Part shown: piece after piece, positions 19,259-45,114 of the stretch
How the letters are laid out: each line of letters begins with the position of its first letter
How positions within the stretch are numbered: position 1 is the first letter of the stretch
Source: Sialis fuliginosa
Lineage: Eukaryota; Arthropoda; Insecta; Megaloptera; Sialidae
DNA length: 64,000 bases
Assembly (NCBI GenBank): GCA_961205875.1
Contig: OY540816.1
Location: 15,882,701 to 15,946,700 of the forward strand
Reading direction: 5' to 3'
Made by a program: the position numbers and the translations under genes
Notes under the pieces: model-generated
What the model was told of the DNA's origin: nothing
The model's database searches: none
The model's input: only the letters and a program-made list of their open reading frames with translations

Positions 19259-19839
19259 GGGGAAGGTCGGGTAGCCCCGGACATTTAAATTTCTAAGAAA
19301 CCAACTACGTTGCGTAGGTAAAACTTTATTTTAAATGTGCGCCCTCTAGAGTAAAAACAAATCCAACTCAGTTGCAAAAAGGTAAAGGCGCTAAAGAGAC
19401 ATTGATTACAAAGAAAAATATTCAAAGTCTTTCCGAAGAAGATCGAGGAAAAGAGACCGAATGTATCATATGTGAAGAAACTTTTGAAGAAGACTTGATT
19501 CAGTGCTATGAATGCAAAGACTGGGCCTATGAAAATTGTGTTTATATAGATTCTTCCGAAATTCATTATTTTTGTGATGTTTGTAAGGTCAAGAAACGAT
19601 TGGGACACCATTGATTACTATGTCCGGGGCTTCCTGCCATCTTTTGAGTTACCAAAAAATTAAGGCCAAAGTATTTTTAATATATTTCTTTAGAAAATTT
19701 TCTATGATTACCATTTTTTAATTAATATGATTGAAAATGTTCTTAGTTTTATTTTAAGGTTAAAATAAAGACAGAAAATTTGTTTATTGTATTTTTATTT
19801 GCAATTCATTTAAGTGTGCGGGGCTACCCGACCTTCCCC
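19259..19839 (+). mobile_element. pogo/Tigger-like deletion derivative, 581 bp
   Basis: Terminal repeats GGGGAAGGTCGGGTAGCCCC and its complement are flanked by TA on both sides (19257-19258 and 19840-19841), as in Tc1/mariner/pogo insertions. Inside is only the 3' end of a transposase-like frame with a PHD-like zinc finger, so the element looks like an internal deletion of a longer autonomous copy. The near-perfect ends suggest fairly recent activity. Confidence 0.85.
19318..19614 (+). pseudogene. C-terminal end of pogo-type transposase with PHD-like finger
   Basis: The frame is open from 19318 to the stop at 19612-19614 but has no ATG, so only the C-terminal end of a protein remains. It ends in a cysteine-rich module, E-C-I-I-C-E, I-Q-C-Y-E-C-K-D-W-A-Y-E-N-C and F-C-D-V-C, that is C-x2-C ... 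C-x2-C ... C ... C-x2-C. PHD-like fingers of this kind are found at the C-terminus of many insect pogo/Tigger and jerky-like transposases (family knowledge). The preceding 35 residues are Lys/Glu-rich. The DDE catalytic region is absent, so it cannot act as a transposase. It sits inside the TIR-bounded element 19259-19839. Confidence 0.7.
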
Positions 19840-20069: not shown

Positions 20070-20566
20070 TGCTAATACCTAATTATATTTCCAATTCTAC
20101 ATCATATTATAAAAAATTAACGGAACTATATGTTTATATTGTAAATAAAAAAATGTACTTAAAAGATTATTCATATTTATATTCAAAAATAGACCAAACG
20201 TATAAATACCACTCTAAAAACCTACATTTTCCATTCCAGTTTTTCACAATTATAATAAATAATACATGAAAATGTCACATCTAAATAAAATAAAAAGAAA
20301 CATAAGTCTCACATGCGCAGACATGACGAATGCAATTAATTATTTTCTTGTTAAAAGTTAAAAATTTTCCGTGGTAACTGTTTTTCAGATCGCTATCTCT
20401 ATGACTGTACATGCTCAAGTTCTGCATCACGCGTGACATTTCTGATGCCCTTTCTTGTCTATGTCGTATAAACAGTGTCGGGATTATCACGGGGATAAAA
20501 AAATAAAAAATAAAAATAAAACTTTATTGCATCGCTCTGAGCGTTATTTTATTAAACGTTTCGTTA
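20070..20566. other. AT-rich stretch, no gene seen
   Basis: Short frames on both strands (20003-20269 and 20281-20490) have no recognisable domain and are considered chance. Confidence 0.3.
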
Positions 20567-20689
20567 CACATAACTGTGTTTACACCAAAGAGATAAAACA
20601 GCAATACGGGTTTTTTGACAAAATGGCAAGAAAACCTATACATTTTAAAATTAGAATTGTTTTGTCGTTTTGGTCTAAACACGGCATAA
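20567..20689. mobile_element. R6 MITE, copy 3
   Basis: It matches copy 2: 'tgtgtttacaccaaagagat' at the left, 'ttttggtctaaacacggcat' at the right, and 'gacaaaatggcaagaaaacc' inside. The 94-codon open frame across it is a by-product. Confidence 0.75.
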
Positions 20690-21717
20690 GAGTTCTTCAA
20701 AGGGTACAGTTCTTACAATACTACGTATTTTTTATGTAGTTTTTCCATATGTTTTTGATATTTTATGAAAATGGTTATAGCAAAAAAATCAGTGTACGAA
20801 TACAATTAAAACTTTGAAAAATAAACATTGAAATAATATAAATAAAATAAATTTTTTATGGGGAGACTCAACTTTTAAATTACGATGTGTACGCTAAAAT
20901 TGTAACTGGAAAAATAAATTGATCAAACATTTGAACTATTGAAGAAAAACAATTGATAAAAAAAATTGTTCACTATCAAATATTATTCTTTATTTTTTTT
21001 TAAATAGGAACCATTTACCCCTACTACTATCGCACATAAAATATAAAAATAAACTTTTCGTTATATTTTTTCAATATAACAAATACTATTTTCATATTTG
21101 TATAAATCAATTTTACATTTCCCGTCATATTTTTATCACGGACTGCACTGTTTACCGACACTCAGCTCGTTTGTTTCGCAGAGTTGAAAACCCTCGGCAT
21201 TTAGATCAACAGTCGATGTGAGAAAACAAGGCATGCGTGAAATATAATCATAGACACCTGCGATAATCAGTGTACTGAGAAAAACCTCACATCATTGGTT
21301 ACGAAATTATATTCTGAAAAAATACTTGTATTTGTGATGATTCCAAAATGATATATTAATTTTATGTTTTATGTAAACTTATCTATATTTTCATTTCTAC
21401 TTTAGACGAAGAAGCCAAGTGATAATATTAAATTACCACAGAAACCTTGCTTATAACTTTAGTAAAGAAAATATATAGGACTCATAACACGCTTCCTAGC
21501 ATTGTTGCTATTGTACTCCGCAAAAATGGGCTCCGTAAAGTCAGTTGCTTATCATTAGGATCTTAAAATGAATATCAATTGTTTTAAATTATAAAAATTA
21601 ATTATTAATAGGTGCTTTAAGATGCCTTTCAAAGTATTTTAGAGATAAATCATTAACTGAGAAACGTTTATTTGGAATCATAATTTCTCTTACTAATCAA
21701 TATAATATACATATTAT
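20690..21717. other. AT-rich stretch with a CpG-richer patch at 21140-21300
   Basis: The patch (ggactgcactgtttaccgac, cgtttgtttcgcagag, aacagtcgatgtgag) stands out in base composition but gives no frame or splice pair. The rest has no recognised feature. Confidence 0.3.
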
Positions 21718-25609: not shown

Positions 25610-25733
25610 ATGAAAGTTCACGTAATTTTCTTAACAATAGCTGCGCTTTGCGCGGCCGCTGAAGATGAAAACACAGTTCGAAGGTCACGACAGTTCAATC
25701 CGTTCATTTATCAAAGTGAGGTAGTGCCAGCCG
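25610..25733 (+). CDS. CBM14 gene, coding exon 1 (signal peptide)
   Basis: The ATG at 25610 is preceded by 47 bp of untranslated exon after an acceptor at 25561-25562. The exon encodes M-K-V-H-V-I-F-L-T-I-A-A-L-C-A-A-A, a standard signal peptide, then an acidic stretch and R-R-S-R-Q-F, a likely processing site. It ends at the donor ccg|gtgagt in phase 1. The next intron is 6.4 kb, as is common after signal-peptide exons in insect cuticle genes. Confidence 0.9.
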
Positions 25734-28700
25734 GTGAGTCATATTATATTAATCTATTTTGTTTTGTATTTTAGTCACTTGGGAAACCACAGTTTAAAAA
25801 AAAAAATTCTTATTTTGTTTACAAAATTATTATTTATAAAAAAACTTTAGATCACCAGGGTAATGAAAAATATGTGATTTTTCCCTTACAAAAAAATTCT
25901 TACCTAATTTTTTAATATATTTTTTTGAAAATTAACTAACTTAATTATTTCAATTTAATTATGATAATTTTTTGTATCATAATAGGCATAAAAAACATAG
26001 AAATAAATTCGTAATAATATAGTAATATGTATTACTTACATTTATATTTCAAATAAAATATTTCATGAAAAACTAGTTTCTCTGAAAACAATATATCATA
26101 AAAAATGATAAAATCTTTCGGAATACATTAAAAGTACTTTTAAAGAAGACAAAATGTAAAACAAGTAGGCTTAACTGTTTTTATGTTATACTTACCAGCT
26201 ACTAGCTATTACGAAATACTGCATTCTGCAGTAATGTGTAATATAGCTTTATTGAGCCCCAGGAAAATTTGAATTTAGAAACTCCATGTACATGAATTCA
26301 GATATTTTTCTTCGGGGATAATTTTTTTTCTTACTACCGTTATAAGTTTATAAAAGATTGATTTGGTCGTTAAATTCTTTTTTGATGCTTTACAAGTTTT
26401 TTTCAAGGCTTGGTTAAATTGTAGTTAATTTGATCTGAGATTATAAAAGTTAATTTTTCTCAAAATTTTTCGTTTGCAATCTCATTAAAATTTGACAGGG
26501 TTGTATGCAAAAAAATAAGATCTTTTCATAGAATGGATGCTATAGCAACGTAACTGATAGCACCAATTTTTTTTTGAAGATTAGCATTACATAGGAAATA
26601 ATTACTCTAAAAATTTTAACAAAACATTTTTTTTTTAAATAGTGAAAATTTTATAAAATATAAGCAATATTCTATAGTTTTTACTCACCCTGTATAGGTA
26701 TAGTTAGTCGAAAATATTAAAACCCATACATTTTGGTATATTTTTATAAAAATCGAACGAACGAAAAAGAAGACTTAAATTAAAAAAAATATTTAAATTA
26801 TAAATAAATAAAAAATTATAAAATATAATTTAAATAACTACATATACAAAATATCAATCCTTAAAAACAATATTAATTATAGGTTTTACTCCTATCTCCT
26901 TCACTATACTTACCAACATTTAAAAAAAATCTTAACAAGTATAAACAATGGACAATTTCAAAATGTGATCCTAACTACACAAAAAAGAAAAGTTTATTTT
27001 TAATATTACAAATAAAACAAGTACGATTAATCGACCCATTTATCAATGACTTGAAGGACGTGAAATTAGTCATTAGACCAGTTGATGTATTTCAAACAAT
27101 GTATAATTGGTAACAATAGAGACCCGACCTCACCTACACACGGTAATCTGTTCATTGCACTAATAATGTGTTATCTCCTACGCTAAAAACAAAATTCACA
27201 ATGTTTCGTAATTAAAAAGTCAGCAATTATCAACCACGTTATGCTAAAAAGTATAATAAATTAAATAGAATAAAAAATTATCTGTTAAGTAAAATAGATA
27301 GAATCAGTTTTAATTATAATAAAATAAGTCGGAAAAGTTTAAAAACATATTTTATGGGTGCTAATTAAGTCTTTAGGTTTTAGTAACGTGAGATAGAAAA
27401 AACGCTCTAGTTTTAAAAAGCCGGTAGTTTTTATTTAATTAAACTTTTTTTTTTTTAATAATCATAATCAAATAATATTTTTTCCGAAGATCCAAATCTT
27501 GTAAATCAAAAATGCCTCGTTTCTAAGCAGTCTCGTATCAGTTTTATCTCGTCAAAATTTAAATCTGTCTCGTCTCGTTTATGTGCGAATTCTAGTTTTT
27601 TTTTTATAGAAAACAAAACTCAATTTTATACATTTATTAAAATTATATATACCAATCATAAATGGACTGTGTAATGCACTAATTCATCAACCCACACAAA
27701 AACTCATTTTTAGATATTAATGTTTTTGATGCAAGCAGATAAATACAATTGGTTTTGTTACATTTCTTACATTCTGTTTTCAATCAAAAATAGTGTTCCA
27801 GTAAATATTTTTTATTAATTAATGCCACCTCAATTAATAACTAATTAATCTAGAGACACCCCACTCAATTGGGTAAGTAAAAAAAAAATTTAGTGCCTAC
27901 ACTTTTCAGTCCAAAAAAATCTATATGTATTTTTTAAATCTCATCATTTCTGTTTTTGGATCACCAATCTACGTCTATATCAAATTTCATTTTAATGTGA
28001 ATATAAACGAAAGAATGGGAGGGCTGTGACAGACAGACAGACGCGCAATTTTGTGTTTTCTACGAAATCTTAAAAATTATATTTTTGTAAGTTGATACAT
28101 TAATGCATAACACAGTCCAAATAATGTTTACAAATTTATTTACAATTATCAACGAACGCAAAATCTTGTTGAAAAAATACTATTTACAACTTATAAGACC
28201 AAAATTCTCGGGAATTATCTCTACGAGACTTATCATGAATGTTGGCATGGTCTCGATTCTGTCTCGTACAAACTTAAAACGGTCTCGTCTCGTTAAAATT
28301 CGGATATCGAAAAGTTCGCTTTTCGATATCCTTACAACAAAAATAAATACAAAACATTATAAATGCTCTTATACCGATACAAATACAAAAAAAACACTGG
28401 GTGACTGAAGACCAAGAAATCTGTATTCAATTCGTAGCGGTGACCAGTAATTTTTTTACCTTTTTAGTTAAAAATAATAAACGTTCGTGTGAACGTTCCA
28501 ATTGCATAACTGATTAGGTGGGCGCCGCGAAGATACCTGTCTATGTAAAGAAACCCGCGTTCGCCCACCAACAACTCCTTTTCTGTGATGCTCCTGGACA
28601 TTGACTTCTTTAAAATCGACGTGTATTTATATAGATAATTATTATTCGTTTTACAACTTTTTTGTACTTTTCATACCATATTTAATTTACCAGTTCAAAA

Positions 28701-31700
28701 CAAAACTACCGGCGGCCGTTGACTTTTAGTACCGTGTTTTTATTATTCAATTTAGAATAATTATTATTATTAGTAACTGACATGAATACCTGTCATTCAA
28801 TTTGAATATTAGTGATTTTATTTAGCATAAATATTAAATATTATGTTGTAGGACTTTTTGAATATTTTATGAATAACAATTAATTATATAATTGGTTTTT
28901 AGAGTGCTAACTGTATTAGATTAAGCTCGATAAATATTTTTACAGTGAATTTATTGACCCTACAATTTCAATTAAATCTAGAAAATAGCTAAATATCATT
29001 TTACTTAAATTAGTGAGAAATTGTTTTCTCGTCAAAAATTCCAAGTTAAAAATTGAACCGTTAAACATCTACATATTAACAAAATTTTATTTTTTGTAAA
29101 CAAAATTATTATCCTCACATAAGTTTTTACAACGCCTATGTCAAAAAATTACGATGTTAAAATATATGTTAGATGTCATTGGATAGTACATAAGACGCAT
29201 CGTTTGACCTATGAGAAAAAGATCTGATTTAACTTTTATACTTATATTTTATATTTAAGAACATTCAAAATGTTTGGGTTCTGATTACGTGGACTTATGA
29301 CCTACAAAACATTCATTCTTATCGAAATAAATGATTTCATCGTCATAAGTACTTAATGTAGATAAAATTTACCCTTTACAGCATCCAATTTGGTCTTTTA
29401 GTTTAAGAAATAACTTTAAATAAGTTATATACGGTAAAATATTATTTAACTCGCGAACTAAAGAACAAGTGCTGCGTCGGAGCGAGGCAGATGGAACGAT
29501 TCGCATGCACTCGGCCGCTATTCGGACTCCTTCGGCTCGACCATTGTCTTTTGATCGTCAATTTTTTATTTTGTTTTCAATAATTAACTTTTATATTTAA
29601 ACAAAACAAAAATTATTTGTACTTTTTGTTCTAATTCGTTTTTGTTAAATAATTTAGGTGTTGATTTGTTATTATTACAATAATAACTAATCATGTTTGT
29701 GCGAAGCCGCGAGCATAGCTAGTTTAATATAAACTCAAATATGTACATTTACATTAAAACATATGCGATGCGACGAAAATAGAAAAAAAAGATTCATGTT
29801 ATTTAAATTTATTCATCTGCTCTCCAAATAGCAAATATTAATAAACATCTAGATCATTTGAATACAAACAAAATTCTAAACCATATTACATAAAATAATA
29901 AAGTACGAGAACAAATAATTACATAACAAATTGCAAATCATAGTGTGGAATTGAAAATGATTACATCTGCCTTGTATAAAGATTAGTTAGCGGAGTTAAA
30001 AATCAATATTGTATTATCTAGAATTTTTTCAAGGAAGAATAAATAAAGGAATTAGAATTGTAGATGACATTCTTTATTAATTTAAAAAATGTAGAATAAA
30101 TAATAAAAATTCATTTGGAAAAAATGAGTCATTCAGGTGTCAATGCGACTAATGTAACTCCACCTAAGAAAATTATTTAATATACAGAATGTCCAAGATA
30201 CAGATTCGGTAAAATGAGATTAATTATTTGTAAGGAAGGGGTGAATATTACTACATCAAAAAAATATTAATAATTGTATGTGGTTTAGGCGGTATACCCA
30301 AAAATCTGAAAACTCGGAAATTCTTTAAATAGCTATAACTTTTTTGTTTGCGGTTTCTTAAAGCACTTTTTGTGTAGAATTGATTGGTATATTTAGAATT
30401 TTTATATCATTTTCAGTCTCCGAGTTAAAAAAATTACTATGAAAAGTTGTTTAAAATATAATTTTGGCACCTCATACCCAATTTCAGAAATAACTTTAAA
30501 AAATTGAAATGAAAAAAATAAATAAATTGCATTTTATTTTGAACAATACAATAAAAACAAACATTTCCTCTTTATTTAATGTGTCTCTATTGTTGTTTCC
30601 ATATCCTACTTCTCTCTTCATAATTAATATCTACTTAAATTTTTAATGCTCTAAAATTCGGTATGGGGTAGAATATACCAAAATAGCTTGTTTTTGATTA
30701 CTTTTACAACGTTGCTTATAAAACACCCTGTAGAAGACCAAATGGATTAATTATTAGTATACCTTAGTTTTACATCAAACAAGACTCGATCCCTAAATGT
30801 CATTCCGAAATTCGAAAAAAAAATTGTTGTACACCTCTTGTTACATCTATCCTGAGACACACTGTATAATAACTTTATTTTTATTTTAAAAAAACCTACA
30901 ATTTTAATCTAAAAACTTTCCATAGAATGTGTCTTATATGAATGCATAATAATCCAATCCTAACTACACATATTTACTGATGTTTTAGATGATTAATTAA
31001 TAAAATAAATAAAACTGTTAATCATGTCTACCGTAAGCTCTTACAGTAAATAAATCTTCACGTTTATAAGACATATATATAGACATAACGGCGACGGCGT
31101 TACAAATTGCACGCACGTTTCGCCCACATCCTACCCCCGCGGATTCGAACCCGTGACCCTCGGCACTGCATGCTTGTTCACAGCCGCCTAAACACGGGCG
31201 CGGTTTATATCTGATGTCATATCGCTGTATCTCTCACTCTATGACAATATAAATTATCTGATCTCACAATGTAGGTGTCGTTACGATTACTAGTGATTCC
31301 AATGCTTGTATAGAATAGTGTCCCTCAACTTTAGTGACCGTTCGACCCAGAAAATTTTGTTATGGGATTATAGAACAAACGGCAGTTTTTTTAAAATCGA
31401 GTAAATTGAAGTCAAAGTTTAAGCTGTTTTATAACAATGCTTCATTTTCAATTACAGATAGCCTATTTTTCTTTGTTTAAGAAAACTATAAGCTTGTTTT
31501 TATCATTTTTTTATTCGTGTTTCATTAGTTATTCCATAACTGAGTCCAACTATGTATATTTTAACTTCTAACGTAGCCTAATCATGATTTGTTAAGAAAA
31601 TCCCTTCGTAAGTATCTTAGTACCCCTTGAAATTCTTGTTAAAGTTTGTTGAACTATGATATAGGTATAATAAATATTGGTACCTTCATCTTTTCAATTG

Positions 31701-34700
31701 ACAAAGTGTTTTAATAATTAAATGTCCTAAGGTCCTTTGACATACCTATTACATGATAAATACATATATTATTGTTGAGAGACTCTGATATAGGAAGTCT
31801 GGTTGAATGGCATAAATGGAAATTGGTACAATATGGTTCGTTTAAACGTGATGCCTACATTCACAAATAAAAGATAAATTATGATGTATGTACATTTTTT
31901 TAAGTGTAAATATTAATGCAATAATAACACACATACAAGGTCGTTGTGATTTTTATTAGTCGAAACATTCAATCATTTCTATGCAAATCTTGCATTTATA
32001 ATATTTTTAGTTTTCTAAAACTAAATTAAAAACCAACCTGAATAATTAGATTTATATTTTTTATAACCACATTGAATAAAATTGTATTTTCATAAAAATT
32101 TTCCTCAACATTTCTTATAAAGTTATAATTATAAAACATACATTACATTTTAGTATCGCCAGTCCAAGCAGTGCCATATTACGCTTATCCTAGTCTAGGA
32201 ACTGAACAAGCAAATCAAAATATTCAACAATGGCAAGTGCAAGCACGTAATGGAGGTTATCCCAATCAAGGGGCTGGAGTTCCACCCCCACCAGGAAACA
32301 TTTGGATACAGGTAAAAAAATTATCATATATTTTGCAACTTTATTATTATAAACGAAGACACCTAACTAAAATATTATAAATCATTTTTCATTTTGAAGT
32401 TATAATAAAATGTAACAGAAATAATTACTTATTGTTTACTGTAAAGGCAATAGTTTTTTGAAAGCTTACTTTTTCAAAAACTTAAGTACAAACTGAAACT
32501 AAGTACTTTGTAATATCTAAAATTGAAAGAAAGAAAACATGTACTAACTTAATTTGCATTTTATGTAATGACAGAGAAAAATACGAATTTGCAAAATCAA
32601 AAATGTTTTATCCATATTAGTAATAGACTTTACTTTCAGAAACTATAAATCTAAATAAAAATATATTTAAAATATTTTCAGGTTCCAAGCTACTACCCAC
32701 AGCCTCCACAACAACCAGTTGCACCTCCAAGTGGATACCCAGAAATACCTTCACCAGGAGGGTTATATCAACCTGGGCAGACTGTACCAACACCGAAACC
32801 GTGGCCCGTGAAACCAACAACCCATCCTACGCCAATAATAGAACCCACCACTCTACCTCCACCACCACATCACCCACCCACACATCCTCCAGAGATTATT
32901 CATCCTCCAGTGGATCCAGCTGTCGGTAAGATATTTTAATAAACTAGTTTTGAAATACCTACAGTATTAGTGTCTTATTAATATTTGTCATAATCCAAAA
33001 AAATTATTAACTGATAATTAAATCTTATCCATGAAGACGTGACTTTTAATCTGAAGTAAAAAATATAATATATTTAAAAGTGTATATATGTTTTATTAAA
33101 TTTTCAGAAGCGTTAAGAAAATGCTGCTTAAAACCACGCGGTCAGTTCCCAAGCCCCAACTCTTGCTACAAATTCATCAACTGCTGGGACGAGACAGTTG
33201 TCGAACAAGATTGTCCCGATGGTCTTGCGTTCAATCCCAAAGGATACTGCGACTTCCCTGAGAACGTTCCTTGTGCAAATGTTCCAGGAAGTGGTGGACA
33301 TCCTGCTACAATCCAACAACCAGGAGCTGGTCATTATCCTGGACACGGAGAACATCCTTCCCATGGCAAACCAGTTATCCCTGTAGATCCTGTACCTGTT
33401 CCTACGCATCCTACACACCCACCTACTTATCATCCTACCCATCCACCTACACACCCACCAACACGTCCACCTACACACCCACCTACAGCACGTCCGCCTA
33501 CTCACCCAACTCACCCACCTACCCCTGCACCTGGTTATCCATCTGGACCAGTTCATCCTGGTTATCCTTCAGGACCTGTCAATCCAGGTTATCCTTCAGG
33601 ACCAGTTCACCCCGGTTATCCTTCAGGTCCTGCTAATCCTGGCTACCCTTCAGGACCAGTAAATCCTGGTTATCCTTCTGAAAATCCCAACCCAAATTAT
33701 CCTTCTGTTGTCCCACCTCCTATTAATGGTGGTTATCCTGGACAAGGACCTCCAGTCACTATTGGCGTTCCTGGTAAGTAATTAAATATTTGTTGTCTTA
33801 AATACTACCAAAACAATTTTTTTCCGTTTATTTTTATAAAAATCTCTTCGGACCCAATTTTAGTGACAGAAGCTAAAGGAAATTTTAATTTAAAACGTGG
33901 ACTCAATCTCTACCACAACCTTAGATTAGGAAAGACTATGGATACATAACAACCAATGCTAGTTTGTGTATGAAACTGTTACCAAAATATTACGGCGGCC
34001 ATCTTTTTTTAAATGTCACAATCGTCATTTGCGTGCTTTTTATCCCAGAGGCATCGGTTGAAAATTTATAATATGCAAATAATAATAATTCAAAACAATT
34101 AATATTTATTTTAAAATCTGAATGATACGCCAATGACTCGTGGAGCGATATGGTAACAACGCTAGATAATGTGTTATTTGTCCTTTATCTTTCCTTGTCT
34201 AAGGACACAACGATCAGTTTTTTAATAGTCTTTAAATTCTAGTTTCTAGTTTTGCTGGTAACATATAAATATCTATGCAATTTACTTGTTTGAATTTGCG
34301 AGTATTGTGTAAGAAAAGCAATTATACCTTATATTGAATATTCCAGAGCCTAATTTGCCAGCACCCACAGCCGAGTGTCCGAATCTGTTCGACCGTTATA
34401 GGAACCCACACAACTGCAGTGAATTCATTGTTTGCAATAACGGTATACCGATTGTCTTCGAATGTCCTCCAACTCTGTATTATAATCCTGTAAGTTGTAC
34501 TCATTTGTAATTAAAAAAAATATTAAATGTACAGTAATTTAATTTTTTTTAAATTTATAAAGGTTTTTCTAGATAGGAATGAATTTATTTGAAGTCAAAT
34601 ATCTAGTATTAAAGATAATTTATTTAATAAATACTATTACTATTCTAAAACTAAGGCCTTTATTACACTTGTCAATTTTAACATCAATTTGAAGTACTTA

Positions 34701-37149
34701 AAATTAGTCAATTTTCTTGAACTTTCTCAGTAATACCAACATAGAGAAATTATATACATAGAATAACAAAACCTTAAATAAACTCTTTTCTTGTTTAAAA
34801 ACAAAATGTACAGAATAATAATTATAATTATTGATTAATAATTATTAATCATTAACAAACATCTAAATCAGCACAAATTAACTAAATAGTAATCTTGTAT
34901 TGTAAAAATCCTAATTGGTGAACGTTAATATCCCTAGATATTACCAAAAATTGATGGAAAAATAAAACTTTTGGAAAAATTAACAAATTTAATACAGGCA
35001 AAGTTAGAACAGCAATATAACCATCATTTAAGACGACTTAAACTAAGAAATCAAGAAATAGTTTTTTGTTTTTTTTTTCAATCAACTCTGTATTTCAAAA
35101 ATAATCAAATGTCAACTTAAATGTGTATGTAATAAATAAATCAAATTATTTTTTTAGGAAATTGGAGTCTGTGACTACGCTCAGAATGTTGATTGTTCAG
35201 TAAATGGTCAAAAACCAACGCATCCTCCACCGCCTCCACCATACAACAACGGTGGTTACAATAACAATGTTGGTTTAGTAAATAACAATATTTATGCGTC
35301 ACATGCTGTTATATCAGGAAGTAAGTTCTTAACTCGTATTTATTTATTTTTGAAAATATAAAATTAATTAATTTAATATAATTTAGTATAAATTCCACTT
35401 GGGTATTATTATTATTATAATAATTATTTATTATTATTATATAATCTAATTCTTTTTCAGTATGGTAACTTTCTTTAAAATAAATAATATTTTGCTTCCT
35501 TGCAATATCGAAGATACGAGAAGCTTTGTGTTCGTTTTAGAATTAAATTATTCAATAATCAACTATCTTTAGTGCATTTAGCACGAGGAAGCACTGTGCA
35601 GATGTTTTTTACAATTGACTCATTCAGGAGCCAAAAATCAATCAATCAAACTTTTTTCGTATTTTATTTATAAAATAAGCGTATTAATTCTAAAATGTAA
35701 TTTCAGACGCTCCAGCTAATTGTCAACCTGGAACTGTATACAGAATGAACCCGGAATGCTCTTCGGTAGCCCTCTGCAGAGAAGGATATACGGAAGTCGT
35801 TCACTGTCCTCCAGGATTATCCTACGATGTCAATCGTAATGGGTGTTTGTTACCGAGTCAAGCGAAATGGTAACAATTTTTTTCTTAACTATAATAGATT
35901 GTTTATTTAAAAATCAGTGGCGAGGCGTGAAATTTTTAATAAGGGAAGCATATTTTGTCAATCCTCTCCCTCCTATTAACAACAAAACTAGTTATGTTAA
36001 GATCAAGCTTTTACTTTAATAAAATCCTTATATATTTATATAGTAACTAAATGATTCTACGTCTTATTTTCTTGTATTTTAGTCGATACTTGTATAACGA
36101 GTTGAAGTTCACCGCAGGAAATTTCACTAAAAATTTTCGAATTTTTGATTTCGTTAAAAGTAAGTTTATTGTATAGAAAATGACGTGAAAAGTTGAAATT
36201 TTCAAACCGCAGGTCTGTATCTTAAACCGTTCTCGAGATATAGCCTCTCAAAGTTTTAATTTTTTCAAATTTTTGGAGAAAATAGGCTATAACTTTTGAA
36301 CGAATGGTCGGAATTGATTTTAGTTGCCGGATTTGAAATCAGCGTGTCAAAATCTATATAATGACATGTATAATACTTTAAAATCCGAAAAAAAAAATTT
36401 GGTCAAAAATCGACATTTTTTTTAAGGTATACCCCTTTGAATTTTTTCGATTTTTCGCGAAATTTTTTTTTTCGAGTTTTAAGGTATTATACATGTCATT
36501 ATATATATTTTGACACGCTGATTCCAAATCCGTTAACTAAAATCAATTCCGACCATCCGTTCAAAAGTTAGGGCCATTTTTCTTCAAAATTTTGAAAAAA
36601 CTGAAACTTTGAGAGGCTATATCTCGAGAACGGTTTGAGATACAGACCTGCGGTTTGAAACAAACAACTTTTCACGTCATTTTCTATACAATAAACATAC
36701 TTTTAACGAAATCAAAAATTCGAAATTTTTTAGTGAAATATCCTGCAGGGAACTTCAATTCGTTATACAAATATCGACAAAAATAAGACGTAGAGGTATT
36801 ATAGTTTTATAATTGAGCGTGTAAATTAATATTAAATGCTATTTTTGGTTAAAATTTATGTTGAGAAAATACAGATTTGTATTAATTTACCCACAAAGTA
36901 AGGGAAGCACTGCTTCCCCTGAATCCATGGACGCTTCGTCACTGTTAAAAATATATATGAATATGAAGTGTATTGTAATTAATTATTGCATTGTTACTAC
37001 ATACTTTCAAATTTTACAATATTTTTAACCTATGCAACACCCACAACAACTTTGTAAATTTAATTGTCTATACAATCAATTTTGAATTCCTCACGTAACT
37101 TTAATTTTTCATGGTTTCATTCTTAATAATTTATTTTTGTTACAGTTAA
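25610..37149 (+). CDS. secreted three-domain CBM14 (peritrophin-A) chitin-binding protein
   Basis: Eight coding exons: 25610-25733, 32154-32311, 32682-32925, 33108-33773, 34347-34489, 35158-35320, 35707-35869 and 37146-37149. All introns are GT-AG and phases agree throughout, giving 554 residues. Residues 1-17 form a signal peptide, followed by a basic R-R-S-R site (24-27). A Pro/Gln/Tyr-rich stretch (42-175) precedes CBM14 domain 1 (Cys 182, 195, 201, 211, 223, 231). A His/Pro/Thr and Gly-Tyr-Pro linker follows, then domain 2 (408, 421, 427, 437, 450, 458), an Asn-rich linker, and domain 3 (505, 517, 523, 533, 546, 554). Each CBM14 fold has three disulfides and binds chitin, so an extracellular role in cuticle, trachea or peritrophic matrix is likely. 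CPAP3/obstructor proteins also have three such domains but much shorter linkers, so this may be a mucin-like relative. Exact orthology is not claimed. Confidence 0.93.
27525..28300 (-). repeat. GAGACGAGAC-rich composite repeat R9, copy 2 (intron 1)
   Basis: This is the inverted counterpart of 13590-14165. GTCTC-rich blocks at 27525-27595 and 28200-28295 flank a middle block (27885-28080) that holds the complement of 'gtagattggtgatccaaaaa' and a 'gacagacagacagacg' run. The 101-codon open frame at 28103-28408 is a by-product. Confidence 0.6.
28302..28331. repeat. perfect 12-bp-arm hairpin in intron 1
   Basis: ggatatcgaaaa pairs with ttttcgatatcc around a 6-bp loop, directly after the last GTCTC block of repeat R9. 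It may be the terminal structure of that repeat. Confidence 0.7.
28517..28569. repeat. GC-rich hairpin in intron 1
   Basis: ggtgggcg (28517-28524) pairs with cgcccacc (28562-28569) inside a short GC-rich patch. The role is unknown; it is probably transposon-derived. Confidence 0.5.
29440..29735 (+). mobile_element. LINE-like fragment in intron 1
   Basis: A GC-rich block (gtgctgcgtcggagcgaggc, ggactccttcggctcgacc) is followed about 140 bp later by 'gaagccgcgagcatagctag', a sequence typical of RTE-like and related insect repeat ends. No coding region is seen. Confidence 0.4.
30180..30872. mobile_element. possible degraded mariner-like element in intron 1
   Basis: 'tatacagaatgtccaagata' at the left and 'tatcctgagacacactgtat' at the right look like imperfect TACAGxxTGTC-type terminal repeats about 690 bp apart. 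The match is loose and no transposase frame is present. Confidence 0.3.
31085..31215 (-). mobile_element. tRNA-derived SINE remnant in intron 1
   Basis: On the minus strand the block contains a perfect B box (ggttcgaatcc, near 31148) and an upstream word ggctgtgaacaagc as a degenerate A box. 'ggggtaggatgtgggcgaaa' follows, a tail seen in insect SINEs. No cloverleaf is formed, so it is not a tRNA gene. Confidence 0.5.
32154..32311 (+). CDS. CBM14 gene, coding exon 2
   Basis: Acceptor cattttag|tatcg, donor acag|gtaaaa; phase 1 in, phase 0 out. It codes for residues 42-94: a Tyr/Pro-rich start, a Gln/Asn-rich Q-A-N-Q-N-I-Q-Q-W-Q segment, and P-P-P-P-G-N-I-W. No cysteine is present, so this is a flexible spacer. 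Confidence 0.88.
32682..32925 (+). CDS. CBM14 gene, coding exon 3
   Basis: Acceptor attttcag|gttcc, donor gtcg|gtaaga; phase 0 in, phase 1 out. It codes for residues 95-175, about one third proline, with P-T-T-H-P-T-P and H-H-P-P-T-H-P-P words. This is a spacer of the kind often found in extracellular, possibly O-glycosylated proteins. No cysteine is present. Confidence 0.88.
33108..33773 (+). CDS. CBM14 gene, coding exon 4 (domain 1 and repeat linker)
   Basis: Acceptor ttttcag|aagcg, donor cctg|gtaagt. It codes for residues 176-397. CBM14 domain 1 has Cys spacing C-x12-C-x5-C-x9-C-x11-C-x7-C and the aromatic residues usual for chitin stacking (Y-K-F-I-N-C-W). The rest is a low-complexity linker: His/Pro/Thr repeats and then G-Y-P-S-G-P units. 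Long open frames on the other strand and in other frames here come from the repeat. Confidence 0.93.
33401..33526 (+). repeat. His-Pro-Thr coding microrepeat
   Basis: Imperfect repeats of a 12-bp unit encode P-P-T-H, with variants P-P-T-R and P-P-T-A. The unit is likely to change in copy number between individuals. Confidence 0.85.
33533..33706 (+). repeat. 27-bp tandem repeat coding G-Y-P-S-G-P-x-x-P
   Basis: Five to six 27-bp units, each encoding G-Y-P-S-G-P-V/A-H/N-P, are followed by two decayed units (N-Y-P-S). Alternate H and N variants suggest expansion by a two-unit (54-bp) step. Confidence 0.88.
34347..34489 (+). CDS. CBM14 gene, coding exon 5 (domain 2, first part)
   Basis: Acceptor atattccag|agcct, donor aatcct|gtaagt; phase 1 in, phase 0 out. 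It carries the first four cysteines of domain 2 (408, 421, 427, 437) and ends at L-Y-Y-N-P, just before the fifth. Confidence 0.9.
35158..35320 (+). CDS. CBM14 gene, coding exon 6 (domain 2 end, Asn-rich linker)
   Basis: Acceptor tttttttag|gaaat, donor ggaa|gtaagt. It gives cysteines 450 and 458, completing domain 2 with a 7-residue gap, then P-P-P-P-P-P-Y and an Asn/Gly linker with N-N-N-V and N-N-N-I. Leaves in phase 1. Confidence 0.9.
35562..35603 (+). repeat. short repeat in intron 6, shared with 63649-63690
   Basis: 'gcacgaggaagcactgtg' and its left flank (ctttagtg) are repeated at 63649-63690, where the block abuts R1. This may be the end of a larger repeat family whose body is not visible here. 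Confidence 0.5.
35707..35869 (+). CDS. CBM14 gene, coding exon 7 (domain 3)
   Basis: Acceptor taatttcag|acgct. It carries cysteines 505, 517, 523, 533 and 546 of domain 3 and ends S-Q-A-K plus the two bases tg. The donor is aaatg|gtaaca. Without splicing, the next codons read TGG TAA, so the frame would close at once with Trp in place of the sixth Cys. Confidence 0.9.
35915..36944. mobile_element. hAT-type non-autonomous element in the last intron, 8-bp TSD
   Basis: Ends CAGTGGCGAGGCGTG and (inverted) CAGTGACGAAGCGTCC are flanked by an exact 8-bp duplication, ttaaaaat, at 35907-35914 and 36945-36952. The length is 1030 bp. There is no transposase frame. It contains a foldback element (36057-36794) and an AATAAA at 36018-36023. 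It starts 45 bp after the donor of the last intron of the CBM14 gene. Confidence 0.88.
36057..36794. mobile_element. 738-bp foldback nested in the hAT element
   Basis: Arms of about 360 bp run inwards from CTACGTCTTATTTT (36057) and its complement (ending 36794). They match over nearly their whole length, with a short loop near 36420. The arms carry 'ctcgagatatagcctctcaa' and its inverse. In the pre-mRNA of the gene this would form a very long double-stranded hairpin. Confidence 0.88.
37146..37149 (+). CDS. CBM14 gene, coding exon 8 (one base plus stop)
   Basis: Acceptor ttttgttacag|ttaaac has a pyrimidine tract and a cttaat branch-like word at 37122. The first base, t, completes TGT (Cys 554) and the next codon is TAA. 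The resulting C-x7-C spacing matches domains 1 and 2 exactly, which is the main reason for preferring this splice. Confidence 0.85.
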
Positions 37150-37226
37150 ACAATGATTTCTTCACAATGAAGATCAGAGTGTTGATAGTCAACTAATTCG
37201 ATACATTATTTGGACCAGTGGATTTT

Positions 37227-37251
37227 ACCACGAACTGTTAAAATTCGTGGT
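37227..37251 (+). other. stem-loop in the 3' UTR
   Basis: accacgaa pairs with ttcgtggt around a 9-base loop, 78 bases after the stop. It is a candidate structural element for mRNA stability or localisation; no function is known. Confidence 0.45.
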
Positions 37252-37396
37252 CCGAATTTTCGGGGATTATTTGGTGATGGTATTAAAATATTTTATTTTA
37301 AGTGTAAAATTTAAATATATTTTATTTATATTGAATGTATCATTTATTTTAACTGTCCTCATATTTTCTGTTTTTTTTTTTGTGCTTTCCGAAGTA

Positions 37397-37402
37397 AATA
37401 AA
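37397..37402 (+). terminator. poly(A) signal AATAAA of the CBM14 gene
   Basis: Canonical AATAAA about 250 bp after the stop codon, followed by T-rich sequence (tttataatttattattattc). It is the first such signal downstream of the stop. Confidence 0.65.
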
Positions 37403-37425
37403 CATTTAATAATTTATAATTTATT

Positions 37426-38261
37426 ATTATTCGTGAATTAGTCTACCAATTGTTCGAATGTCCATATTAGAATATAAATTTCAACTTATAGTTTTAATTG
37501 TTATAAAAACTACTGATTTTGACATCTATATCCTTATTTATTGACAACAATCAGCGACTTAAAGTAAGTACTGTCAAGTGTACCTCATAAAATACATAGC
37601 ATTTACATTATTATACATTTATTACCACTGCTTTCAAATATCGAGCAATTTCATAACAATTTGACACCTAGCAGATAGTGTTAGCTGGAAGCTAATTTGC
37701 ATTTACACTCAAGCAAATTCTTTATAATACCGGGCATTAAACATTTAAACGATATTACATATTTCCAAAAACTGCCGATCCAATAGATTTTGAATTCTCA
37801 AACGAATAATTTAAAATACATACAATACATTTTAAATTTTTTGGGACCACTGTAATAAACCAAATTACATTACATCTTAGCCAAACGACAGTTTAAAGAA
37901 TTCGGATTGATTTCCAAACCAAATCATCTACATATATTTAAATTAACAGATAGTGCCTATTTCGGTGAAAGTGTTTTCGAGGGGTTTGGTATGCACCGCG
38001 CGCGCCTGATCCCCTCTTCCCTCCCTCTCGGCACCCGCGGCACAGGCAGGGCACTTTCACTCTCTTTCTCTGCGAGGCCCTCGTGCTACCTAACAATATG
38101 CCCACACATACGCATACACCTGCTTGAATTAATTTTGGGAAAAATGTAATATTTAATTGATATATTAATTGTTGCGAATATGTAATAGTCAGGGACGTAT
38201 TAAAAAAATAGAGTGTTCTTATTGTGATTATCTACGAAAATTTATTACTTATTAGGCTACA
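37426..38261. other. intergenic, with a GC-rich patch at 37985-38100
   Basis: The patch (caccgcgcgcgcctgatccc, ctctcggcacccgcggcaca) is unlike its surroundings. The 80-codon open frame across it has no recognisable domain. It may be a transposon fragment or a regulatory patch. Confidence 0.3.
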
Positions 38262-39060
38262 CAAGAGATGAGACAAGAATAAAGTATGTCTCGTCTAATC
38301 TCGATTTTTGGAACTGTCTAGTCTCGGTTTCAAATTTTACAACTGACATATCTATATTGAGTGTCCCAATCCTGAAATAATATTCCTAGTTTAATCAGGT
38401 CAAAATAAACATTTTTTGTTTTTTGCACTTTTCCTCTCAGGTTGACGATTTCCGAGTAAAAAATTCATGAAAATCTCTTAGTTAAATGTCAAAAAAAAAT
38501 TAAGTCATACTAAAAATTATTTAAGACAAAATTTTCCATAAAATAAGATACCATAATAAAAAATATAGGTTTCCATTTTCTAGGGAAAATTGAAACCATC
38601 TTGTCTCGTATTCGTGACTAAGGCCAAAACCAAGAAATATGTCAATCTCATATGAATATTTTTACAAAAAATATTATTTCCATTTACTTAATATCAAATA
38701 CACTTTTCTTGATAATCTGCCGAACCGCGAGTTTATTTGTCCACTATTTTTAAACAAATTCATCAATTGTCATCAAATCACGTTGTAAGACAGTTAAATG
38801 TACATATTTAGATTAATATTCAGTAATTGCAGTAATCAAATAACAACAGATATTTCTATTCAATACATTTAATTTAAAAATGTTCACTACTGGGGTGTTG
38901 TTTAAGATTGGTGCCAGTACCTTAGTACATTTTTACTAATTATTGATAATCTTTTAGACACTCATAAAAAAGTTGATATTGTTTCGGTCTTGACTCATCC
39001 GAATCTAAGCCAATCTCGTCTCGGTTCCGATCTCATTTCGAGACCGAGAAAAATCTCATA
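38262..39060. repeat. GAGACGAGAC-rich repeat R9, copy 3, split by an R2 MITE
   Basis: 'gtctcgtctaatctcg' (38287), 'cttgtctcgtattcgtgac' (38600) and 'caatctcgtctcggttccg' (39010) lie on both sides of an R2 insertion at 38732-38922. R9 was therefore in place before R2 arrived. Confidence 0.5.
38732..38922 (-). mobile_element. R2 MITE, copy c, partial
   Basis: It matches R2 from 'tgtcatcaaatcacgttgta' to the terminal repeat 'ggtgccagtacct', followed by TA. The other half is missing. Confidence 0.75.
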
Positions 39061-39095
39061 TATAGGTATAATATAATCCAAAAACATAGAATGTA

Positions 39096-39254
39096 CAGCA
39101 ATCCCTCCATTTACACGGTTAAAAAAGTTTGGAAAAGGGGTGGAAAGTCTTAAAAAACACAACGTAATATAGCAATTTCTATTACTCTTGTTACGCATTT
39201 TTTTACACACTGTTTTCATGGAACCAATTAACCGCGTAAATGGAGGGATTACTG
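39096..39254. mobile_element. pogo-like MITE, 159 bp, TA-flanked
   Basis: The terminal repeats CAGCAATCCCTCCATTTAC and GTAAATGGAGGGATTACTG are flanked by TA on both sides (39094-39095 and 39255-39256). Close ends and small size fit a Tc1/mariner/pogo MITE. Its right end is echoed at about 61530-61576. The 88-codon minus-strand frame covering it is a by-product. Confidence 0.85.
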
Positions 39255-42200
39255 TATACAAAAATATTTAAAATATCCATTTTATCACGCATGAAATTAA
39301 TATACAGCTAATAACTCATGCAGAAGAAGATTTATAAATGTGACATTTCTAATTAACGACAATAGTAAATACATTTATCTCACAGATATTTCATAATACA
39401 ATAAATTTACATTTGATTTCTCTATTGTATGTGTATTTAATGAAATACAATTCAATCTAAAATAACATCTAACGCAACGCCAATGATGTATAGTGACACT
39501 GAACTTAACAGAATGATTTATTAATGAAAATATATATATAAAAACATGCATTGACATAAGATTCAATCGGATATTTGATATGAATTTAGAAAGGTGTTAT
39601 ATGGTCATTTATTTTTGGGAAGAGAAATTTTGAAAAAATGCACTGGTAAAAATTTTTACTTCATGTAAAGAGTAAAAATAAATTAAATATTGGTACATTA
39701 CATTTTTCAAATATATGCAATGGCAACATATTTTACTAGATACTTTCAAATGGGGTATTCATTCTATCATATTATTTATAATTAAGTGTGTATAGGTACT
39801 GGAATTCTGATCCGATCGGAACTAGTAAATTTCATGTATTAAGCGTACATATATTATTTTAGTTATTATTATTGACTAAAATAGAATTTTTTGAAAAAAA
39901 TTCCCGTTCCGGTACACCCTAATCTATAATCTATGGATTTGTTTTGGAATATAGAGCAGTGATACTTCAATTTATTATAACACAGTTGGCAACTCTGACC
40001 ATAAAAAATAACTTTCATAATATCACCTCTGTTTTAATACCGTGCGAAACTTGTCAAAAACTTCATGAAACTTCAAGGGAACTGTCATATAGGTTTGATA
40101 CCCCATTTGAAAGTGCTTACTTGCTAGCAAATTTTGTTAGCTCATTTATAATACCGAAAATATTATTGAAGTACCTTTTTTTGCTAAGAAAGTTTATTTG
40201 CTAATAACTCAATCGGAAGTTAAGGATCATTAATTCTTATACTGTATTCGTAATCACATGTCATTCACATGTACAAAAATTACCTAATAAATAGTAAATA
40301 TAAACCACATATTTTGTTTTTCCATCACACATTATTATTCAATACCCACAGAAAACTTTCTATATGAATTTAAGAAAAATATTACCATAATATCTTACAT
40401 CGGAAGAAAGTGAACAATACTTATGAATTTGTAGACATATCTATTAAATAAACAAATCGCCTTAAGGCGCTGCTTAAAATAATATCTGCATACAAATTAA
40501 ATTGTAAATGATGATACATAAAATTTTATTTTAGGACTATATTATAGACTAGAATTTTTATATCAATAAGCGAATAAAAGTAGAAATGTTTTATTTTAAT
40601 TTATCGTCAAAATATCTAACCTTCATTATTAATCTTTAATTAAACCAATAAATATATAAAGTCTTCGTCAGACTTTAAGATTAGGAACATTTATAAATAC
40701 ATAAAGAGATACACACAGATATTATGATAAAAATAGTTAGAATTAATTCAGGGAAGATCAAAATTATTTCCATCAAAATCTGGAATTCGAAAAAATCGAT
40801 TTTACAATACTTTTTTATACTATAGGGTATTATAAAGAAAACAGTATCACAGACAGCATGTTCCAGTTAAGGGTAAAGCTACTATTACATAACTGAAATT
40901 GATCTAAAATAACATTCTAGATTACCGAAGAATCCTTCAATCTTGCATATACCTATAAAATGACAATATTTTTTTTAAATAATACAAATAATCTATTATT
41001 ACAATATAGATGTAAATGACACATAATAAGTTATTAGAAAACAATTATCACATTACTTACTCATGGTCAAACGCTATTAAAGTCAAGGTATCCCCTAACA
41101 AGGGCTGGCGTTACGGTAGGGGTTTTAACAAGGAATAGGAAACTTGAGAGTTGTGGTGTGTTTTTACATTGTAATAATAAAAAAAAACATCAACAAGGTT
41201 AGGTATCAATAGCTCATATCCTGATTACTTATAATGATATTATAAGATTGTATTTTTTAATAGTTTAATCTATTTGATAACAAGATCCTTGATTTGTATT
41301 TTGGAACAAAAGACGAAAACCAAATTGAAATAATTGACATCCAATTTTTTTTTCATTTTGGTACTACCATTATACATAAAATCTATAAAAAGAATAATGA
41401 GAATATCTTAAAATGTACCTACTTATAATAATATATTTAGTTTATTATAAAAATCATTAGTTCACAATTATTATATTTATATATATTTTTTAAATATATT
41501 TACCAACAATATTGAATCACCAGGAAATATTTTTCGATTTTATAGATAGCAAGCAAAAAACGTTTGGAATGTCATGGATATTTGCGTCTTCTATAATTAT
41601 AAAAGACATATTATGTATGTACAATGTTAATACATACCAATCATAAAATGCGTGAAAATTCTTACATACCTACTTATACTACATTAAAATACCTAAGTAT
41701 CAAATCTATTGTGATACTTTGTAAAATTTAATATTGCATTAAATAAATTATTTAGAAACTAAAACCATATAATCTATATTTGCAATTTTAATTCTAAACT
41801 TACAATGCAAAGAATTCCAATTATGTTTTTACGACTTGACTTTCCACAAAAATATAAATCAATTTAACAAAGATTTCAAATTTCGTAATCAAAATTCAAG
41901 ACGTTTATTTATTGAATACAAAACACATTAAAATATTAAGACTTCCTTTTGCTTTGTCAACTTTCATTGGGATGTGTTCTATTCAATGCATATTTGTTGT
42001 AAATAAATGAGGGTTTCCCAACCACTGGGAACGATTATATACAAATTTATTTAATTAAATATATCATTAAATATACATTAAGATTTTTTGGGGCAATCGA
42101 TTATTATTAATTAAGTATAATCATAAATGGTATATGTATTTAAAATGTGTCAATATCGCAAAAAATAATCAACTTTCTGCTATATAAAATAACAAATTAT

Positions 42201-42837
42201 TATATTTATTTCTAGTGAAAAAAAGGACATATTATTATTATTCTCATCGTTCATAAACTATGGTTTTAATAATATGTATTATATTGTTTCAATCTGTATA
42301 ATTAAAACTGAGAGTATTTGGGTCAAAAACAAGCAAAAAGAACAGAACAAATCTGAAATAAAATCAAAATAAAAAAACAGTATACGGTTTCAATAATTAA
42401 AATTAAAATATACATAGTAAAGCTCAATGACCCAAATTAAGGTTAAGCCCTTCAAGAAAGAATAATAAAATAATGTATGGGCCCCCTTTTTAAAAAATCC
42501 TTAAAAAAGAAAAAAAAGTTCGAAAATTTAATTTTCCAAAAACAATGTCTGTGTTGTACCCCCCCCCCCCCCCCCCCTTCTCCCTTTAATTCGAAACAGA
42601 CACTTGCTTAACTGTATTAACGACTTAAATACCCAATAGTTACTTGTATTGTTCTTTTATTTTTTTCCCAACGAATTAATTGCGTGACCGTGGTCTAAAT
42701 TAATTTATAATCACCAAATTAAAAGTAATTAAACATACTATCAGTTTCCAATTATCATTTGATATGTTTCCCTATTGATTTCCAGGTGTGTCTGACAATC
42801 GTCTCATTTTCACAAAATAAATTATACAATTAGAGAA
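39255..42837. other. AT-rich stretch, no gene seen
   Basis: The only structure noted is a pair of 17-bp inverted repeats (actttcaaatggggtat 39742-39758 and its complement 40098-40114), which may bound a small element. The open frame at 39944-40204 overlaps the right arm and has no recognisable domain. A run of 19 C lies at 42559-42577. Confidence 0.4.
42559..42577. repeat. 19-base C run
   Basis: A pure C homopolymer, exceptional in this AT-rich window. It is prone to slippage and to sequencing error. Confidence 0.9.
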
Positions 42838-43010
42838 ACCATCGGGCGGTTGTCTCCTTTGACATTTCGCTCGGTTTTTGACCCGAGCGTGTGACACAAC
42901 CACAACAACACCGAGAAGAAGAAAGCAGTGAAGTGTGCCGTCAATGTTCAAATGTTTTACAGAGGTGTTAGTCAGTGTCGTACGAACACGAAAATCAGTT
43001 TAAAGAAAAT
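42838..43010 (+). promoter_or_regulatory. CpG-rich patch, candidate promoter or 5' exon
   Basis: 'ccatcgggcggttgtctcc', 'ttgacccgagcgtgtgacac' and 'ccgagaagaagaaagcagtg' form a G+C- and CpG-rich block with a purine-rich stretch and an initiator-like tcagt (about 42974, before gtcgtacgaac). This is what an insect 5' UTR or promoter often looks like. No coding exon of a matching gene was found downstream in the window, so a long first intron would be needed. Confidence 0.35.
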
Positions 43011-43077
43011 AATTAACAATCAAATAAAATAATACAAAAAAATTATAAATATGGAGTGTTGAAATGTAGATCTCAAT

Positions 43078-43420
43078 TAGTAGAATATGACCTTTTTTCT
43101 AACTCAAAAATAGTGCCTGTAAGGGGCTCCAAGTAGTAATTTATTTTTTCCACCCCCTTCTAACTCGGTAACTACTGGTTCAAAAAATCTGAAAAAAATT
43201 GGTAACGAGGTTTTGGTGGGACTACCAACCACAAATACTAAAGTCAACAATATCAATTATTTTTGGAGTAATAGGAAGGGACGTCATAGAATTTTTTATT
43301 TTTATTTTTATAGCTAGGCAAGTGGGGTGTCATAATATTGACCTGTATTAGTACAATATGAATATTTTTATATTTTTTTCTAATTCAAAAATGCACCTGT
43401 AAGTGGCTCTAAACAGTCCT
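43078..43420 (+). repeat. diverged direct repeat of about 65 bp
   Basis: 'tagtagaatatgacctttt ... gtgcctgtaaggggctcc' at 43078-43140 is echoed by 'tagtacaatatgaatattt ... tgcacctgtaagtggctct' at 43348-43412. This is an internal duplication of an unidentified repeat. Confidence 0.55.
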
Positions 43421-43615
43421 CGTGTACTTCGTAACCCTTGTGGCATACACCCGGGTATGTCTTGACCGATTTTTTTTTAGGATTTGGTTATATCATATCT
43501 CAACCAATGTTGCCCTTTATAATTTATTTAAAAATCGTTCTTCTTAAGACAAATTATAGTTGTTTTCTAATTTTCAACTAGAATGTTGAAAAAATACAAC
43601 TCGATACAGTATATA

Positions 43616-44324
43616 CAGTCGACTCTCGATAATTTGAAACTCAAGAGACTAGAGAAAAAGTTCAAAATAATAAGAATTCAAATAACCAAGAGGAAGTTAG
43701 GAAAAAATTCAAATAAACAAGAGTTTGACTAAAAGTACGTACATATGTACAGTCGCCTGCAGAACTCGTCTGGCACCCTAAAGGCTAGAATCGCTTACAA
43801 CATATTCCAAATTTAAAGACAAACATCATCGGTTATCTTTTTCTAACAAGTTTAATATATTTAAATACTAAAATTAGGAATATCAAATATTTATTGCCAC
43901 AAAATTTACGTATACAATTTTTAATAGATTACATAATAATTTAATTGCACAAATATATATGAGTACTATAAACGAAGAGTAGTTCTTTATCTAGCAAATG
44001 AATTTCAAAATATCTGTCTTTGTTTGATACATGGAGAAATGATTTAAATATTATAATAATCAAATGGGAGGAGTCTACTAAGTTTGTGATAAACGAAAAT
44101 TAATACAAACTGCAAGACCATTAATGCAGGTGACTTACAACGTGGTCTTTATTTAAAAAGTAATACATATACTATGTGATTCAAAAGACTTCAAATTATA
44201 GAGAGTTGGGGACCACTGACTTCAAACTATAGAGTGTTGACGAACAAGATGCTGTTACTACAACTTCAAATTACCGAGGGTACGATGATATATGGATTTT
44301 TTTCAAATTATCGAGAGTCGACTG
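43616..44324. mobile_element. pogo/Tigger-like element, TA-flanked, interrupted by R1
   Basis: Ends CAGTCGACTCTCGATAATTT and its near complement, flanked by TA (43614-43615 and 44325-44326). The subterminal regions repeat a 'ttcaaattatcgagagt'-like word at least four times on the right and in decayed form on the left, as expected for transposase binding sites. No transposase frame is present. R1 copy 3 (43746-44139) is inserted in the middle. Confidence 0.85.
43746..44139 (-). repeat. R1 repeat, copy 3
   Basis: It matches R1 from 'agaactcgtctggcacc' to 'tgcaggtgacttaca', nested in the pogo-like element, which fixes the order: pogo first, R1 second. Confidence 0.8.
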
Positions 44325-44850
44325 TAGCAACAAATATATTTTATAGGTTAGTTTAACCACAAATTGTATTTAATTAAATGAAACTACGCATCCCCCTCAA
44401 AAGTATCAACTACGTCTCTGATCTATGATGGTTGATAATCTTCACAATTTCTCCGTTACACAATTCCGCGTCACTGCGTTATGCGAAATTGTAATTCTTC
44501 CCAGTTATTTAATTACCAATGTTGATTACGTAAGACTAGGTGTCATTACATGTTTTTGTTGTCATAGAAAGCGGATATGGATATGATTATGTTTAATTTG
44601 TCCAAAAAACGTTTCACTTAACTATTAGCAAAGGTACACACATATATACATCGCGTGTTTGTTTTCATAATCTATTTACTAATATATTATCTTTTGGTAA
44701 CATCTTTATAAGATAGCAGGGTTATTTGGCTTGTATGTAATTAATTTTCGCTAATAACTGACATTACAATAATTATCTGCATAGCATAATGTATACTTCT
44801 TATCTAACAATATATACATATGTAGGGATATGCAAACCTTTTAACACGAG
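44325..44850. other. AT-rich stretch, no feature
   Basis: No coding frame or repeat pair was recognised. Confidence 0.3.
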
Positions 44851-45114
44851 CAGTGGCGTAACCAGGATTTTTTAAGGGGGGGGAAATTTTTTTATGGAGG
44901 GGTATATGAGGAGATGAGTTCCAAAACTCGTTCGTTCCGTTTTTAAAAAACTCGAGATAGTATTTTGGATTTTGAAAGAATTTATGGCATTATTTTAGTT
45001 TTTTTGTCAGTTTTGAACAAAGGTCTATAAATCATATTAAAAGTTTTGTAACTTACCTCCTCATATGTATTATATATTATAACAATCTGCTCACCCCCCC
45101 TGGTTACACCACTG
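44851..45114. mobile_element. hAT-type MITE, 264 bp
   Basis: The ends CAGTGGCGTAACCAGG and CCTGGTTACACCACTG are hAT-like. The flanking octamers aacacgag (44843-44850) and aatactag (45115-45122) match at 6 of 8 positions, a decayed target duplication. G- and C-rich runs sit next to the ends. Confidence 0.8.

Follow-up and report, generated by a model that had tools for sequence, protein, structure and literature searches.

The 64,000-nt window analyzed here (contig OY540816.1 of the alderfly Sialis fuliginosa, positions 15,882,701 to 15,946,700 of the forward strand; coordinates below are those of the window) contains on its + strand a gene for a protein with three CBM14 domains, whose last codon is probably split by an intron filled for the most part with a transposon-like insertion. 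The gene as we rebuilt it has 8 exons (25610-37149) that form one frame of 554 residues, with the N-terminus MKVHVIFLTIAALCAAA (Table 1). The product would be a secreted, proline-rich protein with chitin-binding (CBM14/peritrophin-A) domains, the signal peptide being called from hydrophobicity only; the ATG of exon 1 was the sole one to pass a scan of positions 1-32150 for a hydrophobic start combined with a phase-1 donor.

Table 1. Exons of the CBM14 gene and features of its last intron (window coordinates)
Feature	Positions	Strand	Details
Exon 1 (predicted)	25610..25733	+	start codon, signal-peptide-like N-terminus; donor CCG/GTGAGT, phase 1; joins in frame
Exon 2	32154..32311	+	Pro/Gln/Tyr-rich; joins in frame
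Exon 3	32682..32925	+	Pro/His/Thr-rich; joins in frame
Exon 4	33108..33773	+	CBM14 domain 1 and Pro/Gly-rich repeats; frame, Pfam
Exon 5	34347..34489	+	first part of CBM14 domain 2; frame, Pfam
Exon 6	35158..35320	+	end of CBM14 domain 2 and linker; frame, Pfam
Exon 7	35707..35869	+	CBM14 domain 3, cysteines 1-5 and first two bases (TG) of the sixth; frame, Pfam
Last intron	35870..37145	+	1276 nt, phase 2, donor GTAACA, acceptor TTACAG
Left 8-bp target-site duplication	35907..35914		TTAAAAAT; identical to right copy, 8/8
hAT-like non-autonomous element	35915..36944		1030 bp; ends CAGTGGCGAGGCGT and, inverted, CAGTGACGAAGCGT
AATAAA inside element	36018..36023	+	motif only; possible early polyadenylation of unspliced RNA
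Nested near-perfect palindrome	36075..36785		339-nt arms, 91% complementary, 33-nt loop
Right 8-bp target-site duplication	36945..36952		TTAAAAAT; perfect copy
AG-free stretch	36969..37143	+	175 bases before acceptor; T-rich end, branch-point-like TTAAT
Exon 8, coding part	37146..37149	+	T (37146, third base of Cys codon) and stop TAA (37147-37149)
AATAAA, probable polyadenylation signal of exon 8	37397..37402	+	motif only

The probable split of the terminal codon and the CBM14 domains

The borders of the last intron read ATG/GTAACAAT ... TTTTTGTTACAG/TTAA, with the acceptor AG at 37144-37145. Exon 7 ends with AAA TG; continued into the intron bases GTAA it yields TGG TAA, while the joining of 35869 to 37146 yields TGT TAA. 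The initial annotation had proposed this split codon with one coding base in exon 8, and its coordinates proved exact to the base; translation likewise bears out its claim of two readings of equal length, since both have 554 residues and differ solely in the last one (LLPSQAKC in the spliced reading, LLPSQAKW in the unspliced reading).

The whole protein matches the Pfam family CBM_14 (PF01607) in 3 stretches with 96.4 bits, and the single domains 1, 2 and 3 all pass the gathering score of 22.1 (43.9, 55.2 and 31.1 bits, respectively). The spacings of their cysteines (domain 1: 12-5-9-11-7; domain 2: 12-5-9-12-7; domain 3: 11-5-9-12-7, with the last 7 present in the spliced reading only) fit the pattern CX11-15CX5CX9-14CX11-12CX6-7C given in PMC7663561, provided that the last intron is removed; the unspliced domain 3 has five cysteines. 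The C-x7-C spacing that the initial annotation expected at the end of domain 3, by comparison with domains 1 and 2, therefore holds for the spliced reading. With the terminal Cys, the match of domain 3 reaches position 53 of the 53 positions of the profile, and with Trp it ends at position 49 and still passes (28.7 bits). Six conserved cysteines are described as the rule for CBM14 domains (PMC3504105, PMC7663561). EHEP, whose structure is solved and which consists of three domains of this kind, has the bonds C1-C3, C2-C6 and C4-C5, and its authors note a similar motif in tachycitin and other proteins (PMC10619976). If the analogy holds, Cys554 should be the partner of Cys517 (C2-C6), and in the Trp form Cys517 would have no partner.

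Domain 3 is without aromatic residues at two places where domains 1 and 2 have them, so it may bind chitin poorly, and its role may be structural rather than chitin-binding. In comparisons with the Protein Data Bank (PDB), domain 1 matched CBM14 chains (E-value down to 3e-08), while the matches of domain 3 were weak, with a lectin as the best one (E = 0.56) and the CBM14-bearing chitinase 6g9c at E = 2.8, with the final Cys of domain 3 opposite a cysteine of the chitinase. NCBIfam returned nothing for a 148-aa segment spanning domains 2 and 3. A profile built from the three domains was run against the 2026 stop-to-stop frames of the window that have 20 aa or more. It gave four hits with E-values no higher than 10, all of them exons of the gene itself, and thus no further CBM14-like exon or nearby paralogue sharing the intron, although a remote paralogue could be missed by this search. 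Pattern matches in viral contigs (1 and 45) and in genome contigs (19 and 35) yielded no confirmed relatives; the collections scanned are viral, bacterial and archaeal by description and hence uninformative with respect to insect orthologues.

The signal peptide, the three CBM14 domains and the six-cysteine spacing resemble those of CPAP3/obstructor proteins. However, the domains are not arranged in an N-terminal tandem with small conserved linkers: unlike in Tribolium CPAP3 proteins, for which such linkers are described (PMC3504105), a long Pro-rich N-terminus precedes the first domain cysteine (residue 182), and the linkers between the domains have 176 and 46 residues. Repeats of the type GYPSGPV(H/N)P, rich in Pro and Gly, lie at 33530-33700 between domains 1 and 2 and are likely a length-variable linker. 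The frame of exon 5 continues for a few codons into its intron (34490-34510, GTAAGTTGTACTCATTTGTAA) and gains a spurious Cys there, so domain 2 read from the open frame alone would also be wrong.

Evidence for and against splicing of the last intron

We consider it probable, as a judgement and not as a computed posterior, that the last intron is normally spliced out and that this completes the sixth cysteine of domain 3. Under this explanation a constitutively removed intron would cut the codon between bases 2 and 3, splicing would add T and the stop TAA, the resulting cysteine would close the C2-C6 disulfide, and the in-frame TAA at the donor would simply follow from a phase-2 donor that begins with GTAA. 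The acceptor at 37145 has the highest score among the seven acceptors of the gene (here and below, splice sites were scored with generic weights). It is the best of the only 3 AGs of the intron that lie outside the inserted element (3.03, versus 0.37 and -7.9 for the AGs at 35897 and 36968). The distance to the previous AG, which was examined post hoc, is 177 bases, and a distance at least as long precedes only 4 of the 2600 AGs on the + strand (37145 included) and 4 of the 2721 on the - strand; for the other six acceptors it ranges from 27 to 96 bases.

The principal rival explanation is that there is no last intron at all: the gene would end with TGG TAA, the sixth Cys of domain 3 having become Trp through a change in the species or in this individual (or only apparently, through an error of base calling), the transposon would lie in the 3' untranslated region (UTR), and the acceptor at 37145 would be a chance match. 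This is consistent with domain 3 being the most diverged of the three by its Pfam score, with the donor being the weakest of the gene, with the frequency of acceptor-like AGs and with the AATAAA at 36018, 145 nt past the unspliced stop. That AATAAA, however, lies within the inserted element and so arrived with it; the other five cysteines of domain 3 keep their canonical spacing, in a family for which six are the published rule; and both the score of the acceptor and its long AG-free run would have to be coincidences. We regard the absence of the intron as unlikely and as a weaker explanation than splicing.

Several observations weigh against splicing. The donor ATG/GTAACA scores 0.04, compared with 2.52-9.2 for the other six, and 261 of the 3066 GTs in the window score at least as high. 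At the acceptor side, 107 of 2590 AGs score at least as high as 37145 (scored without the +1 base), and 37145 ranks only 17th among the 367 AGs in 35901-45000. Of the 1276-nt stretches sampled every 50 bases across the window (the real site included), 58% hold an AG that scores at least as high as 37145 and has T or C next to it on the 3' side; the share is 8% if a stop must come after that base. The acceptor score and the Cys-stop ending thus constitute moderate evidence only. No other acceptor of the gene scores as high or has an AG-free run as long, so these two properties are not typical of the introns of this gene. The weights used are generic and not specific to the species. Finally, in the CBM14 domain of CHIT1 the reported bond pattern differs from the C2-C6 pairing (PMC4844120), so this pairing is assigned here by analogy only. 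The proposal that the T-TAA at the acceptor alone proves splicing was dropped, given the frequency of comparable AGs in the window stretches.

Among the 16 AGs that outscore 37145, 2 are located inside the element (36117 and 36748) and each would lead to Trp and a tail; the other 14 are downstream, where only 43313 would give Cys and a stop, i.e. the identical protein. On balance, the claim of the initial annotation that splicing supplies the sixth cysteine draws its support from the domain spacing and from the acceptor, and less from the donor.

Any phase-2 intron with a GTAA donor gives an immediate in-frame TAA, and the TAA is found here because the donor starts with GTAA after a phase-2 split. 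If read through, all seven introns of the gene reach a stop within 1-22 further codons. For the two products to have equal length, exon 8 must moreover start with a single base followed by a stop; this arrangement is presumably rarer but calls for no particular cause. A terminal Cys codon split in this way is an ordinary quirk of gene structure, and a stop just inside the donor is commonplace. For hemipteran introns (Oncopeltus, Cimex) in-frame stops just past the donor, mostly TAA, are stated to be general ("data not shown"; PMC6444547); that statement covers introns at large, whereas the case at hand concerns a final intron and a final codon.

The inserted element and possible retention of the intron

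Most of the last intron consists of the 1030-bp element, which was not mentioned in the initial annotation. It is flanked by 8-bp target-site duplications, and its two ends are terminal inverted repeats in which 12 of the first 14 bases match. An 8-bp duplication together with CAGTG-type ends is characteristic of the hAT superfamily, and the element combines the duplication and the terminal inverted repeats of a hAT-like miniature inverted-repeat transposable element (MITE). A blastn search (E 1e-3) found no second copy in the window. If the element and one of the two duplications are subtracted, an intron of 238 nt remains, which is within the range of the other introns (182-668 nt, the first excepted), and the element probably came later than the intron. 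The palindrome nested in it folds as RNA with -458.9 kcal/mol, compared with a mean of -129.8 kcal/mol for 20 shuffled sequences. The distance from the donor is 45 nt for the start of the element and 205 nt for the hairpin. It is conceivable that the element and the weak donor together cause retention of the intron or early polyadenylation.

This leads to the other rival explanation, namely that both forms are made in regulated amounts, the spliced RNA coding for Cys and the retained or early-polyadenylated RNA for Trp, with one disulfide fewer and Cys517 unpaired. By the general rule, nonsense-mediated decay is not expected for a stop without a later exon junction, and none follows the last intron; the weak donor, the lengthening of the intron by an element with a strong hairpin and the AATAAA at 36018 also fit this explanation. 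A precedent is Drosophila glass, where in the last intron (intron 4; isoforms PA/PB) the stop follows immediately after the junction, and 7 of the 7 complementary DNAs (cDNAs) covering this intron keep it (PMC6655844). As in glass, the stop in the Sialis gene lies right at the last exon-intron junction and retention would give a complete frame with an altered end. Unlike in glass, where cDNAs document the retention and the truncated protein loses half a zinc finger (PMC6655844), the length here is unchanged, a single residue differs, and the two forms are predicted from the DNA sequence.

The same precedent also argues in the opposite direction, since the truncated form of glass alone cannot fulfil the function of the gene and its absence is harmless in the eye (PMC6655844). 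Moreover, with all seven introns of the Sialis gene running into a stop within 22 codons, the stop is no sign of design, and the Trp form would probably be defective, given that each CBM14 cysteine is critical for chitin binding according to mutagenesis cited in the CHIT1 paper (PMC4844120). We therefore judge regulated production of both forms to be quite improbable. Slightly more doubtful still is the specific scenario in which the transposon, with its hairpin and poly(A) signal near a weak donor, converted constitutive splicing into a choice between Cys and Trp. The two proteins one disulfide apart that the initial annotation envisaged are possible in the sequence, but nothing tested here supports real retention. 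Alternative splicing is also described for a three-CBM14 gene of Tribolium, TcCPAP3-C, where it involves whole alternative exons (5a/5b) tested by RNA interference, as opposed to a single terminal residue here (PMC3504105). A Cys/Trp swap by retention of the last intron of a CBM14 gene was not found among the titles and abstract openings listed in the literature searches.

Other features of the window and implications for annotation

The window has a GC content of 28%; it contains no Rfam match at gathering scores, and ARAGORN reported nothing. Two frames on the - strand (18495-18740 and 20524-20712) encode a similar peptide, YAVFRPKRQNN..., a similarity that suggests copies of an interspersed repeat. 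A 98-aa frame on the + strand (19318-19614) displays a PHD-like zinc-finger pattern with scores below the cut-offs (Pfam PHD: 19.2 bits, cut-off 24; FYVE_2: 20.7 bits, cut-off 27.2) and is possibly, as a guess, the tail of a DNA-transposon protein. A 125-aa open frame on the - strand (8162-8539) is long for such an AT-rich window and matches nothing in Pfam above the cut-off and nothing in NCBIfam.

The expectation of the initial annotation that gene finders working on open frames would end the gene at the TAA of the unspliced reading is a fair one. If the last intron were overlooked, the predicted protein would still have 554 residues, the correct number, but its last residue would be incorrect, as would the 3' UTR. 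Such an error would be hard to see, and the missing cysteine of the resulting model could then be blamed on evolution. If, on the other hand, regulated retention were real, it would represent a minimal isoform switch of a matrix protein, affecting one residue and one disulfide, and if the transposon had indeed created a Cys/Trp switch, one gene would give rise to chitin-binding proteins of equal length whose terminal domain has either three disulfides or two.

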